Assembly: GCF_003337435.1 (NCBI RefSeq) | Contig: NZ_QPJS01000003.1 | Coordinates: 186,001-250,000, forward strand | Length of the DNA stretch: 64,000 nt | Origin: Schleiferia thermophila | GTDB lineage: Bacteria > Bacteroidota > Bacteroidia > Flavobacteriales > Schleiferiaceae | Direction: 5' to 3' | Program-made: the position numbers and the translations under genes | The notes under the pieces: generated by a model | What the model saw: only the letters and a program-made list of their open reading frames with translations | What the model was told of the DNA's origin: nothing | Databases searched by the model: none | Shown here: positions 3,442 through 61,176 of the stretch, in pieces | How the letters are laid out: each line of letters opens with the position of its first letter | How positions within the stretch are numbered: position 1 is the first letter of the stretch

Positions 3442-6234
3442 ATGAGACGACTTCTGATTCTGTTTTTATGCAGTATAGTGGGTTGGCTATACGGACAAAG
3501 TACGCAGTCCACTGGCCAGCTGCCTGATTTTGTTAGGTCTGGAAAGCTTCGTAATGGGCTAAGCTACATGATTATGGAAAACAAAACCCCGGAAAATAGA
3601 GCTGAACTAAGACTGGTGGTACGTTCGGGAAGCCTCAACGAAGACGACGATCAACAGGGACTCGCCCATTTCGTGGAACATATGTGTTTTAATGGAACGA
3701 GGAATTTCAGTAAGACTTCACTGGTGGATTTCCTCGAAAACACCGGAACCAGGTTTGGCCCTGATCTGAATGCTTACACTTCATTCGACGAAACAGTATA
3801 CATCCTGCAAGTGCGCACCGATAGTGCAGACCTGCTCTGGAAAGGACTGCTTATCCTGGAAGATTGGGCAGGATATGTAACCTTTGAGCCTGAAGAGATC
3901 GATAAGGAGCGGGGCGTAGTCCTGAGCGAATGGCGCACACGTACAGGCGGCAGTGAACGCATCAGCAAGATAACCTTTCCAGTGATTTTCAAAGGCAGCC
4001 GGTATCCTGAACGTTTTCCGATCGGAAAAACCGATATCATACAAAATGCTCCGTATGAAGCATTTAAAAGATATTACAGAGATTGGTACCGACCTGATCT
4101 GATCACCGTTATAGCCGTGGGTGACTTCGATGCTGCACTTGTAGAGCGTCACATCCGAAAGCGCTTTTCCAAACTGAAACGGGTTAAGAACCCAAGGACG
4201 CATGCTTCGAGGGAGATTCCACTTGACGCCGGTGCACGAGTGGTATCCGCTTCCGATCCGGAAATCCAAAACTTCAGTCTGAATATTCGTTTTATGGCCC
4301 CAGAAATCGATTACTTCGCCCCAGACGGTTTGGAAAAGAGCTTTCTCATCGGCATCACAAATGATTTATTGAACGCCAGAATCCGCGAATTCCTGACCAC
4401 ATCACAAAGCAAACTATTGAATGCAAGTGCCTTCGTGGGCAATTCACTAGGAAACTCTTCAGCGCTGACACTGTCTCTTTTGCCAAAAGACAGGCAGTGG
4501 TATGAAGCCTGTCAACAACTTTTTAATCTGGTCAAAGTAGCGGGGGATCATCTTCCGTCAAAGGAAGAACTTGATTTCGTAATACAGGCATATCGGAGAC
4601 GACTGGAGTCCGAAGTACGTGTAAAGGACAAAACACCTTCGTCACAATGGACTTCCAGATTGGTGGCGCATGCAGTAGGACGCAGCCCCTTTCTTGACCC
4701 GGAAGCGCGATTGGATTATTTCGATCGGTGGGCATCATCCCTTACCCCGGAGATGGTGAGCGAGCTGATAAAATATTACTTAAATTCTTCAACATGGGCT
4801 GCCTCGGCCATTTCATCGGAATCCGAAAAGCTCTACCTTCCCAACGAGCCTCAGCTCGCAGCCGCTGTATATTATTTTCAATCGAAGAAGACATATCCTT
4901 ACGTATTTTCTGCTCCGGCTCCACGCCTTCAGGTGTCCGAGGCAGAAATAAAAGATGAGTCAACTGAGCAGATTCCGGAGAATGCAGCCGGATACCGGGG
5001 ATTTGCTCTTTCGAACGGAATGCAGTTTTACATCCGAAAAGTATCCGAGGACAAAGACCGAATATTGATTGATGGTTTTCTTTTCGGTGGAAATTCCCCT
5101 TTTCCCGACTCCCTGCTTCCGGCTGCAAATTACCTGATGCAAACCGTTTATGAATCGGGGGTTGGTACACACGACATCACAGAGCTGAGAAAGATTTTGG
5201 CCGGCAGGCGCATCAATGTGTTTCCTTACCTGAGCAATTATTACCACGGAATCAACGGGTTCTCCTCACCGGAAGAATTGGAGACAGCCTTTCAGTTGAT
5301 CAGGCTGTATCTGACAGAGCCACGCATCGAAGAGGAAGCTCTTTCGAGAGTAAAAGCCCGGGAAGTAAATCTGCTCAAAGGACTGTTTAACAATCCAGAT
5401 GCTTTCTTTGGCAGGGAACTCAACAGAATCTTATACAATTCCAACCCGAGAGCTGTGACTCCTACCGTTAGCCAGGTTGAAAAAATCACACTAAACCAAC
5501 AGAAAGACATATGGAAGCAGCTCTTTAGCGCACCTGCACAGATGAGATGGATTTTTACAGGCGATGTGGATGAGGAAAAGGTAAAAGAACTGGCTATTCG
5601 ATACCTTTCTGATATTCAAAATAAAGCCAATACGTTGGAAGTGATTGATCGCAACTTGCGCATCAATGTAAGCGATAGCCTGTATGCACTTAAAAAAGGA
5701 GAGAATCCCCGCTCTCAGGTCCGAATGGTGTTTTACGGAAGGGTAAATGACCCTGAGCAAGAATGGCAAATCAAAGCCGCCACCGAAGTGTTGGGAATAA
5801 AACTCAGAGAAGAGCTGAGAGAAGAAAAAGGTGGAGTATATGGGGTTAGCGTATTTTACAACCTTAACAGTCCGTTTAATGATGAGTACACCGCCGTGAT
5901 TGCATTCAATACGGAACCTGCCCGTAAGGAGGAGCTGATCAAAGCCACCCGGCAAGTAGTAGCTGCCCATGCACAAAAAGTAGATCAGGAGACTCTGCAA
6001 AAAATAAAGGAACTTCTTCGGCAGGACGTTGCCAAAGGCCAATCGCAAGCCATTTACTGGCATGGTCTGATGCAGGGAGTTGTAAAGTTTTCAAAACCAG
6101 ATTTCACCGCTGACACCGAAGCCTACCTCAATTTTGTAAATACACTGACAGCTGATGAGCTAAGTCTATGGATCATGCGCTATTTGGGCATGAGACCTGT
6201 GGTAGTGGTTATGGATCCTGAAGTTGTAAAATGA
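3442..6234 (+). CDS. M16 family zinc metallopeptidase (PqqL/insulinase type)
   Basis: 930 residues with an N-terminal signal peptide (hydrophobic residues 4-17, then GQS). The inverted zinc motif HFVEH at 76-80 holds two His ligands and the catalytic Glu. KERGVVLSEW at 155-164 supplies the third ligand (probably E163). A second, catalytically silent M16 half (about 500-930) contains GGVYGVSVFYN, the R/Y region typical of the inactive C-terminal domain. Such two-domain periplasmic proteases degrade peptides. The gene stands alone on the plus strand, divergent from the polysaccharide genes, with efp 60 nt downstream. Confidence 0.92.
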   Translation: MRRLLILFLCSIVGWLYGQSTQSTGQLPDFVRSGKLRNGLSYMIMENKTPENRAELRLVVRSGSLNEDDDQQGLAHFVEHMCFNGTRNFSKTSLVDFLENTGTRFGPDLNAYTSFDETVYILQVRTDSADLLWKGLLILEDWAGYVTFEPEEIDKERGVVLSEWRTRTGGSERISKITFPVIFKGSRYPERFPIGKTDIIQNAPYEAFKRYYRDWYRPDLITVIAVGDFDAALVERHIRKRFSKLKRVKNPRTHASREIPLDAGARVVSASDPEIQNFSLNIRFMAPEIDYFAPDGLEKSFLIGITNDLLNARIREFLTTSQSKLLNASAFVGNSLGNSSALTLSLLPKDRQWYEACQQLFNLVKVAGDHLPSKEELDFVIQAYRRRLESEVRVKDKTPSSQWTSRLVAHAVGRSPFLDPEARLDYFDRWASSLTPEMVSELIKYYLNSSTWAASAISSESEKLYLPNEPQLAAAVYYFQSKKTYPYVFSAPAPRLQVSEAEIKDESTEQIPENAAGYRGFALSNGMQFYIRKVSEDKDRILIDGFLFGGNSPFPDSLLPAANYLMQTVYESGVGTHDITELRKILAGRRINVFPYLSNYYHGINGFSSPEELETAFQLIRLYLTEPRIEEEALSRVKAREVNLLKGLFNNPDAFFGRELNRILYNSNPRAVTPTVSQVEKITLNQQKDIWKQLFSAPAQMRWIFTGDVDEEKVKELAIRYLSDIQNKANTLEVIDRNLRINVSDSLYALKKGENPRSQVRMVFYGRVNDPEQEWQIKAATEVLGIKLREELREEKGGVYGVSVFYNLNSPFNDEYTAVIAFNTEPARKEELIKATRQVVAAHAQKVDQETLQKIKELLRQDVAKGQSQAIYWHGLMQGVVKFSKPDFTADTEAYLNFVNTLTADELSLWIMRYLGMRPVVVVMDPEVVK

Positions 6235-58230: not shown

Positions 58231-58255
58231 AAGAACGAATTTGCACGTATTATGG

Positions 58256-58279
58256 ACCGGCATTAGCCGGTTTTTTGTT
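58256..58279 (+). terminator. Terminator after the Trx-TPR gene
   Basis: ACCGGC (58256-58261) / GCCGGT (58266-58271), 4-nt loop, T run after it. Confidence 0.75.
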
Positions 58280-58371
58280 TAATTATGAAAGTAAATAAAT
58301 AAACAAAAATCTTGTAAGTGGTTGGTAACTATACTTTTCTTAATGAGAAGTTAGGAAAGAATATGATTTTA

Positions 58372-58379
58372 TATATTTG
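58372..58379 (+). promoter_or_regulatory. Possible -7 element for the rhodopsin gene
   Basis: TATATTTG in a very AT-rich region 93 nt before the rhodopsin ATG. A good -33 element is not visible. The long A-rich leader (58390-58471) would be transcribed. Confidence 0.4.
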
Positions 58380-58471: not shown

Positions 58472-59230
58472 ATGATAACAAATTTACTCGATGTCGTTAC
58501 CATCCCGGTAGACGATCCCGTAGCCTTCACCTTCTTTACCGGCTACATGTCCATGTTTGCAGCTTCCGTATTTTTCTTCATCGAAAGGGGGAGAGTACCG
58601 GACAAATGGAAGACCTCGCTGCTGGTATCAGGTTTGATCACCGGTATTGCCGCTGTGCATTACTACTACATGCGCGATTACTACGCAAACACAGGTTCAA
58701 ACCCAACGGCTCTGCGTTACATTGACTGGACGCTGACCGTACCCCTGATGTGCGTTGAGTTTTATCTGCTCACCAAACCGGCTGGTGCTACCAAAGGACT
58801 AATGTGGAGGTTGATCATTGCTGCTGTGTGGATGTTGGTATTTGGCTATATTGGCGAAGCTTTTAATCCAGAAGGTGGAAGCACAAGTCATAGTGTGCTA
58901 TACGGAGTTCTTTCTACTTTGGGTTATGTATATATCCTCTATCTAGCCTGGTTTGGCGAAGTGAAACAATTGGCCGAAAAAACCCAAAACCCAACTGTAA
59001 TTCGCGGAATTCGCACTTTGTCATGGTTTATATTGGTGGGTTGGGCCATTTATCCCATCGGATACATGTGTATGCCAGGCGGATGGTTAAATTTAGCCTT
59101 TGGATGGCAGCCAAGTGCCGTGGACCTGTTTTACAACATAGCTGATGCCATTAACAAAATAGGTTTTGGCTTGGTGGTGTATGGAATTGCTATTTCCGAC
59201 CTGGAAAAAGTAAAAGCACAAGCAGCTTAA
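58472..59230 (+). CDS. Light-driven proton-pumping rhodopsin, xanthorhodopsin-like
   Basis: 252 residues, seven membrane helices. Retinal lysine K229 lies in ADAINKIGFG with Asp225 four residues before it. Helix C reads RYIDWTLTVPLMCVEF: Asp85 (counterion/proton acceptor), Thr89 and Glu96 (proton donor) form the D-T-E motif of outward proton pumps. Met93 is at the spectral tuning position (green-absorbing type). His63 would pair with Asp85. The Asp-Lys distance (144) and Asp-to-Gly145 distance (60) match Salinibacter xanthorhodopsin (D96, G156, K240) as I recall it, so Gly145 may open a carotenoid antenna site. No retinal or carotenoid synthesis genes are in the window. Confidence 0.95.
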   Translation: MITNLLDVVTIPVDDPVAFTFFTGYMSMFAASVFFFIERGRVPDKWKTSLLVSGLITGIAAVHYYYMRDYYANTGSNPTALRYIDWTLTVPLMCVEFYLLTKPAGATKGLMWRLIIAAVWMLVFGYIGEAFNPEGGSTSHSVLYGVLSTLGYVYILYLAWFGEVKQLAEKTQNPTVIRGIRTLSWFILVGWAIYPIGYMCMPGGWLNLAFGWQPSAVDLFYNIADAINKIGFGLVVYGIAISDLEKVKAQAA

Positions 59231-59232
59231 CC

Positions 59233-59694
59233 ATGAATCCAGTAAAAGTTGAAAGAAGTGAGCCGGTTTATCCGGCTCATTTTTATATTAAGCCCTTTAT
59301 TGAGCTCACAGTAGAGATGCTGGACTGTGTCAGCAAGCACAATTACAGGCGATTGGCAGAGATCTGCGATGATGATTTTGGCATCATCGATATCGATGTG
59401 GATGGTGGCTCCAAAATAATCAGAGATCGGAAAGAATGGGAAGAGTGGTTTCAGGGGTTATTCCCTAAGCTAAGAGCAATGAATGCAAATACATGGAGTG
59501 AAATCACCGGCTATGAGGCACTCAAAGCGACAGATATGGGCTACAGTGTTGTAGATTTTAATCAGCTCCTGCAATTGCCCGATCGGATATTGTCTTTTCA
59601 GGTGATCGCGACCATCATCTGGAGATTGAAAGATGGCCAATGGAAGGAGTCCCGTTATCACAGTTCTTTAATAGGGGTAAAGGAAGTCAATTAA
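59233..59694 (+). CDS. NTF2-like/SnoaL-fold protein of unknown function
   Basis: 153 residues. The pattern of three helices (FIELTVEMLDCVSKHNYRRLAEICDDDF) followed by a curved sheet with IIDIDVDGGSKIIRDRKEWEEWFQGLF, ATDMGYSVVDF and ATIIWRLKDGQWKESRYHSSL fits the NTF2-like/SnoaL fold used by hydratases, isomerases and small-molecule binders. No catalytic residues can be assigned. It starts 2 nt after the rhodopsin stop, so they are very likely cotranscribed. No signal peptide. A role in retinal or carotenoid handling is an idea only. Confidence 0.65.
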   Translation: MNPVKVERSEPVYPAHFYIKPFIELTVEMLDCVSKHNYRRLAEICDDDFGIIDIDVDGGSKIIRDRKEWEEWFQGLFPKLRAMNANTWSEITGYEALKATDMGYSVVDFNQLLQLPDRILSFQVIATIIWRLKDGQWKESRYHSSLIGVKEVN

Positions 59695-59855: not shown

Positions 59856-60179
59856 ATGCAGTGGAGACAAGGTGATGTATTGATCGAATCCATTCCTGAG
59901 GATGAACTCAAAGGTAAAGAGGCCAACTCAAATCTGTTAGTAAGAGGTGAAGGCCGCTATCATGGCCATTATGCCACAGGCAATGTAACTGTATTAAGTG
60001 ACGGATCCGAGATTTTTCTTCGGGTACATTCCAAAGCACAAATTGAACATCTGCATACTCAAACCCTATTGTTTACAGGAGAGCATGCACCTATTGATTT
60101 GCCAAAAGGAACTTACAGGATCATAAGACAGCGCGAGTACAATCCCTATCTGAAAGCAATAGAGCTCATTCAGGATTAG
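59856..60179 (+). CDS. Small conserved protein paired with DUF6745 gene
   Basis: 107 residues. No signal peptide or membrane helix. Histidine-rich conserved-looking spots: RYHGHYATG (35-42), HLHT (65-68), GEHAPIDLPKGTYRI (75-89) and RQREYNP (91-97). This set recalls small proteins found next to DUF6745 genes in other bacteria, with the same HGH, EH.PI.LP.G.Y and QREY.P pattern. The histidines could bind metal. The gene ends 1 nt before the DUF6745-like gene. No function known to me. Confidence 0.65.
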   Translation: MQWRQGDVLIESIPEDELKGKEANSNLLVRGEGRYHGHYATGNVTVLSDGSEIFLRVHSKAQIEHLHTQTLLFTGEHAPIDLPKGTYRIIRQREYNPYLKAIELIQD

Positions 60180-60180
60180 G

Positions 60181-61176
60181 ATGAAGGAAGCCAATGAACT
60201 TAAGAACTTACTGGCATTTTACTATTCGCTGGCAGAGCTTCCGGCTCCTGATTTTGTAACCATTTGTGATACGCCGAAAGAATTTCACCATCAGGTCCAA
60301 CGTGCCGCTTTGCGCGAAGACAAGACCCTTCACCAGTTCATGTTGGCGGCTTTTAGAAGTAAAGTACTCAGCGACCTTCATCGCCAACTGACTGCCAAAC
60401 ACCTCATCGAAAAGTACCACCGGCTTTTTAATGAAAAATACCGCGCCAAATTTGTCCAACTGAAAAACAACAGACATCAGATACGGCAGATTCTTTTCGG
60501 ACAACACACATCCCCCGGTATTTCGACCTTTGTGGTGAGCGACGATACCTTTCTGCTCACGGTTTTTGAAAGTGTATTTAGTGAGTTTATAGCCGAATTC
60601 TCAGAGCAACATCCTTTGACCGATATGGTGGGACTGTATGAAGAGCTTTCCCGGAATGGTTCATCGTTTTTTAGCTATCTCACCCGATATGAAGCTGTTA
60701 TATTGAGATGGCCTGATAATTTTCACGTCACACCAATGGGAATTTTTCACACACCGGATCAACCGTGCCTGTCTTGGAAAGATCAACGCTTTTATTTTTA
60801 CAACAACTGGCCCATATCTCCCGAATTTTATGAAAACCCAGATCGGGTTACCAAGACCATGGTAATGAGCGAAAAAAACGTCGAAAAAAGGCGAGCCTAT
60901 ATGGAAATTCTCGGCAGTAAGCGTTTTGCTGAACTGCTTGATTTAAGAGTAAGAGACCAGTCCATCGATCGCCAGGGTTATCTGGTAGAACTTTACCAAT
61001 CCAATCAACCTGATGATCTTTCGGGCGATTACATTCAGTTTGTAAAGGTCATCTGCCCAAGTACCGGTCGGGCGTATATGTTGTGTGTTCCTCCTGAAAT
61101 TAAGAGTGCGCTTCAAGCTGTGGCCTGGACTTTTGGGAAAGAACTGGATGAATATCAGCCGGTCATCGAAACTTGA
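60181..61176 (+). CDS. DUF6745-like protein
   Basis: 331 residues. The first 170 residues are mostly helical without a recognisable motif. The C-terminal part (about 190-331) shows the DUF6745 wording: HTPDQPCLSWKDQRFYFYNNW, SEKNVEKRRAYMEILGSKRF, VKVICPSTGRAYMLCVPPE, and AVAWTFGKELDEYQPVIET at the end. It is immediately preceded by the small histidine-rich protein gene, and the pairing itself is the main clue. Cytoplasmic; function unknown. Confidence 0.65.
   Translation: MKEANELKNLLAFYYSLAELPAPDFVTICDTPKEFHHQVQRAALREDKTLHQFMLAAFRSKVLSDLHRQLTAKHLIEKYHRLFNEKYRAKFVQLKNNRHQIRQILFGQHTSPGISTFVVSDDTFLLTVFESVFSEFIAEFSEQHPLTDMVGLYEELSRNGSSFFSYLTRYEAVILRWPDNFHVTPMGIFHTPDQPCLSWKDQRFYFYNNWPISPEFYENPDRVTKTMVMSEKNVEKRRAYMEILGSKRFAELLDLRVRDQSIDRQGYLVELYQSNQPDDLSGDYIQFVKVICPSTGRAYMLCVPPEIKSALQAVAWTFGKELDEYQPVIET

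Follow-up and report, generated by a model that had tools for sequence, protein, structure and literature searches.

An NTF2-like gene beside rhodopsin genes in Schleiferia thermophila and two further Bacteroidota lacking a detectable blh: a candidate retinoid- or carotenoid-handling accessory

The window analysed, a stretch of 64,000 nucleotides of the Schleiferia thermophila genome (contig NZ_QPJS01000003.1, positions 186,001 to 250,000, forward strand), carries a proteorhodopsin gene coding for 252 amino acids (58472..59230, + strand), followed at 2 nt by a gene coding for an NTF2-like (SnoaL_3) protein of 153 amino acids (59233..59694, + strand, with the ATG at 59233), referred to below as the rhodopsin-linked gene. 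The coordinates, the two ORF lengths (252 and 153 codons) and the spacing of 2 nt had been given in an earlier annotation made from the letters of the DNA (the sequence-only reading), and all were borne out when the open reading frames were rechecked. Its recognition of a rhodopsin was likewise correct: the product is a type-1 rhodopsin (PF01036, E 2e-40), the best solved relatives of which are the proteorhodopsins 9jov and 9jou (E 1e-72). With its PF01036 match, the DTE motif (D85/T89/E96) and the Schiff-base lysine K229 in TM7, it is a predicted light-driven H+ pump, a proteorhodopsin of the DTE type. The fenestra position is occupied by a glycine (G145), which was considered as a mark of a carotenoid antenna in the NTF2-linked rhodopsins and rejected, as it is present in the rhodopsins of all the relatives. 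The upstream gene, coding for a thioredoxin/TPR protein, is closed by an intrinsic-terminator-like hairpin with an 8-bp stem and a T-rich tail (58254..58280, + strand), and the rhodopsin gene therefore appears to begin its own transcription unit. The sequence TATATTTG (58372..58379, + strand), located 93 nt before the rhodopsin start, matches the Bacteroidota -7 element TAnnTTTG, a weak match of a kind found at chance level window-wide. Downstream of the pair (59856-61176) lie genes for a 107-aa protein without a family and a 331-aa DUF6745 protein.

The junction of the two genes contains a second hairpin of the terminator type, TGAGCCGG-TTTAT-CCGGCTCA followed by TTTTT (59259..59284, + strand, dG -16.5 kcal/mol), which occupies codons 9-16 of the NTF2-like gene. 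It has a perfect, G+C-rich stem of 8 bp and a T tract, lies 29 nt past the rhodopsin stop codon, and is one of three terminator-like hairpins in all on the + strand of the window; in many relatives the rhodopsin terminator stands at about the same distance from the rhodopsin stop. The hairpin may be the rhodopsin gene's own terminator, still in place with the second ORF running over it, or else an attenuator of the expression of the NTF2-like gene, and translation coupled to that of rhodopsin could suppress it. The corresponding junction in a Flavobacteriales relative described below (L036) is devoid of such a hairpin. Cotranscription of the two genes, which the sequence-only reading had deduced from their spacing, is less certain than the 2-nt gap suggests, because of the strong terminator-like hairpin lying inside the second ORF; it is plausible and probably partial.

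The second ORF is, on comparative evidence, a real gene, since it has two relatives of near full length, the differences from which fall mostly at third codon positions. Its proposed assignment to the NTF2/SnoaL superfamily also held at the sequence level, with a SnoaL_3 score of 29.2 bits against a Pfam gathering cut-off of 22 bits; all three members of the subgroup it forms with these relatives pass this cut-off (29.2, 32.4, and 23.7 bits), and the protein of L035, the second relative, matches DUF4440 as well. In these matches the members resemble the SnoaL_3, DUF4440, and CaMKII association-domain proteins, from which they differ in forming a distinct subgroup, found here only beside rhodopsins and marked in the alignment by the invariant stretches ICDDD, RDR, TWSEIT, DMGYSVVDF, and RYH. 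Conserved residues include W69, W88, D101, Y104, D108, Q111, R141, and H143. On inspection by eye, no signal peptide stands out in the window protein. The Pfam search gave no match of this protein to PF15461 (Blh/Brp) or PF03055 (RPE65/Diox1), and PF02136, the family of the C-terminal domain of the orange carotenoid protein (OCP), is absent among its matches at E <= 1.

The nearest solved sequences, found by a profile search, are CaMKII hub domains (E 3.5e-4). AlphaFold2 models, based on three sequences only, are of low confidence (pLDDT 51-53), and the order of the secondary-structure elements predicted in them is consistent with an NTF2 cone. The weak Foldseek matches of these models are mostly of the NTF2 fold, with CaMKII hubs at the top of the list and LinA, a bile-acid dehydratase, and designed steroid and vitamin-D binders among the others. 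The low confidence of the models precludes any argument from a pocket or from docking. The two rankings of the CaMKII hubs speak for a protein that binds or tunes the rhodopsin, as a regulator, a factor in its assembly or a partner in oligomerisation, with a domain resembling the CaMKII hub and no part in the handling of retinal or carotenoids. Against such a role, the CaMKII_AD family (PF08332) scores below its Pfam cut-off (15.3 vs 22.1 bits), and the absence of blh from all three genomes with the gene, described below, would have to be a coincidence; we regard it as unlikely but worth keeping in view.

The two relatives come from a scan of the genomes of 84,980 species, in which the NTF2-like protein alone served as the query, so that the scan was blind to rhodopsins; it needed an exact 8-residue word, and distant members would escape it. 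Only two close relatives were confirmed. One (L036, 53-54% identity to the window protein) lies in the Flavobacteriales MAG Prado036, where a proteorhodopsin gene (4222-4983) and the NTF2-like gene (4983-5444) are on the same strand and overlap by 1 nt. The other (L035, 61-62% identity) lies in a Bacteroidales MAG of the set CSSed16, where the rhodopsin gene (4803-3964, - strand) and the NTF2-like gene (4995-5423, + strand) are divergent and 191 bp apart; this rhodopsin is, by sequence, a KR2-type sodium pump (KR2 match with E 3e-123, NDQ motif). Each of the two genomes encodes a single rhodopsin, and the chance that a random gene neighbours it is, by our own estimate, roughly 2 in ~2,300 gene positions per genome. 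The adjacency in two cases of two is strong because the scan was blind to rhodopsins and there is one rhodopsin in each genome. Homologues located mostly away from rhodopsin genes would have spoken against a link between the two genes; as both independent close relatives adjoin a rhodopsin gene, the link survived, and the pair in the window is taken to be more than a chance neighbourhood. Beside the Prado036 rhodopsin gene, and divergent to it, a TspO/MBR gene is located (L036 3650-4171), while genes for a CheB-CheR-PAS fusion and a PAS protein (L035 257-3859) are convergent to that of the sodium pump.

In the subgroup as a whole, the rhodopsin gene adjoins the NTF2-like gene in three members of three, with two types of rhodopsin and in both orientations. 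Among the NTF2-like proteins, those of L035 and L036 form the closest pair (65% identity), and the window rhodopsin is 78% identical to that of L036, each of these two being only ~21% identical to that of L035. The relatedness of the NTF2-like proteins thus does not follow the type of rhodopsin, which argues for a repeated association and not for one inherited block. Since the gene occurs with both H+ and Na+ pumps, its target is likelier to be something common to the two, whether a pigment (chromophore or antenna) or the protein scaffold of the rhodopsin, than the ion itself. The same indifference to the pumped ion would suit the generic regulatory or assembly partner discussed above equally well. 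The sequence-only reading, which knew of no established partnership between rhodopsins and NTF2-like proteins and suggested one for this pair, therefore stood in this part, the cotranscription being the part that became less certain. None of the papers searched describes a pairing of a rhodopsin with an NTF2/SnoaL protein; the partnership is supported here by the gene neighbourhoods of few but independent cases, in a subgroup known from three members, two of which are in MAGs, on short contigs and with no completeness given.

Apart from the window's own copy, single-sequence searches yielded no member in 60 genomes of relatives, in 296 genomes from the order or in 395 from the phylum, and when 295 and 45 genomes in the surroundings of the two relatives were searched with a profile, only the query genomes came up. 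Weaker matches (E 5e-4 to 9e-3) were not taken as members, there being no rhodopsin within their short loci. Among viral contigs and phages no relative of the protein was found, and the sole match in the plasmid set, from a Devosia plasmid, was insignificant, and the annotated genes around it include no rhodopsin.

The nearest relative of the window genome (G001) has a rhodopsin 94% identical to that of the window, preceded by the same upstream gene; genome searches found in it neither blh nor the NTF2-like gene. The genes following the pair in the window share nothing with those following the rhodopsin gene in G001, hence the 3' flank has been rearranged in one of the lineages. The difference between the two genomes may be due either to a gain of the NTF2-like gene in the window lineage or to its loss in G001. 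This altogether different downstream flank, along with the patchy distribution of the gene in the sampled genomes, would fit a small, unrelated NTF2-like gene brought beside rhodopsin loci by chance, hitch-hiking on the transfer of neighbouring DNA, and a terminator retained inside the ORF, at the position of the relatives' rhodopsin terminators, would suit a recent arrival. Such an origin is nevertheless distinctly improbable in view of the adjacency of all three members to rhodopsins of two types in two orientations, the pattern of purifying selection in the NTF2-like genes, and their G+C content, which matches that of each host locus.

Genes for pigment synthesis were compared in eight genomes: the window genome (G000, 99.83% complete) and the two MAGs (G654 and G655), all three with the NTF2-like gene, the sister G001, and G009, G014, G020, and G049. 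Blh (PF15461) was not found in the three carriers of the NTF2-like gene, nor in G001, and it was found in all four of the other rhodopsin-positive comparison genomes; the link of the NTF2-like gene with the absence of blh thus rests on three genomes. An RPE65-type dioxygenase (PF03055) was found in none of the eight, and phytoene synthase (CrtB) in every one. The search for a full-length lycopene cyclase (CrtY) was positive in G000 and G001 and negative in G654 and G655; as the completeness of these MAGs is not given, gene absences in them are weaker evidence. The presence of CrtB and CrtY together with the absence of Blh and RPE65 means that the window organism should make beta-carotene and have no known enzyme to cleave it.

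In the relatives blh often adjoins the rhodopsin gene (15 of 29 loci by tblastn), and the NTF2-like gene occupies the place where it often stands. This position, and the beta-carotene pathway of G000 lacking both known types of cleaving enzyme, would be expected if the NTF2-like gene coded for the missing retinal-forming or retinal-isomerising enzyme, as a direct replacement of Blh. Folds of the SnoaL/KSI/LinA type do house isomerases and dehydratases acting on hydrophobic substrates; we know of no SnoaL-fold member that cleaves carotenoids. With G001 devoid of both genes, and with beta-carotene perhaps unavailable in the two MAGs in which CrtY was not found, a direct replacement is very improbable. 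The case of G001 also indicates that a blh-less host can do without the NTF2-like gene.

The best single explanation, to which we incline tentatively and short of an even belief, is that the NTF2-like protein is a soluble retinoid- or carotenoid-handling accessory of blh-less rhodopsin systems. A role of this kind, which the sequence-only reading had put forward as speculation, fits the indifference to the type of pump, the lack of Blh and RPE65 in three genomes of three and the NTF2/SnoaL fold, and is weakened by G001, blh-less yet without the gene. The protein would be a small cytoplasmic accessory of a light-driven ion pump, forming a cassette with the rhodopsin gene, and presumably co-expressed with it, in a few Bacteroidota without known retinal-forming enzymes. 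The ligand of its NTF2 cup may be a polyene of hydrophobic character, namely retinal, an apocarotenal or a carotenoid, drawn from the membrane or from the surroundings; this polyene would be handed to the apo-opsin or converted on the way, so that the protein would stand in for, or compensate, the blh usual beside the rhodopsin genes of the relatives. A more far-reaching version, in which the protein is part of an unrecognised retinal route of blh-less bacteria, as a soluble carrier or converting enzyme that equips H+ and Na+ pumps with their chromophore (or with a carotenoid antenna), seems rather unlikely as it stands.

The carotenoid-handling accessory resembles the blh-rhodopsin cassette of relatives in the same family in that the accessory gene is commonly placed directly beside that of the rhodopsin; unlike the soluble, unrelated NTF2-like protein, Blh is a membrane protein, and it is absent from the genomes concerned. 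The homologues of the C-terminal domain of OCP (CTDH) have the NTF2 fold. They are soluble, extract carotenoids from membranes and pass them to partners (PMC6123778). As small soluble NTF2-type carotenoid carriers they are a precedent for the function and not for family membership, as the NTF2-like protein lacks the PF02136 match and its partner is a rhodopsin, while that of CTDH is HCP or OCP. In Aurantimicrobium minutum, which has a rhodopsin and no blh, retinal is formed by a pathway still to be identified (PMC7734400); other blh-less rhodopsin bacteria are thought to scavenge retinal (PMC11322631, PMC9296517). These bacteria, A. minutum and Saccharibacteria among them, are like the organisms described here in having a rhodopsin without a known retinal-forming gene and a retinal source that is unknown or external. 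Unlike here, where a candidate gene is present, the rhodopsin loci of Saccharibacteria were reported to be without a conserved hypothetical protein at the place where blh often stands (PMC9296517). The supply of retinal in blh-less rhodopsin bacteria is an open question, for which the NTF2-like gene is a concrete candidate, standing out by its occurrence with both H+ and Na+ pumps and in blh-less carotenoid-making genomes. Even if it should only assemble or regulate the pump, the protein would still represent a novel kind of partner for rhodopsins.

A substitute for blh was also sought beside crtY in the window genome, where only a conserved 237-aa protein without a Pfam match, present in G001 too, was found; its gene lies directly upstream of crtY in both of these blh-less genomes (L076 8793-9506 in G000, L077 9445-10158 in G001). 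Another locus of the window genome (L056 7026-13594, G000:C1) is a carotenoid cluster coding for a MerR/B12-binding regulator similar to LitR/CarH, an ECF sigma factor, CrtI, and CrtB, as well as an isopentenyl-diphosphate-isomerase-like protein and pterin proteins (PTPS, GTP cyclohydrolase I, and an SDR). In G049 (C1:354783-356687, loci L065 and L046) the lycopene cyclase and Blh domains are located in one frame of 649 aa, apparently a CrtY-Blh fusion.
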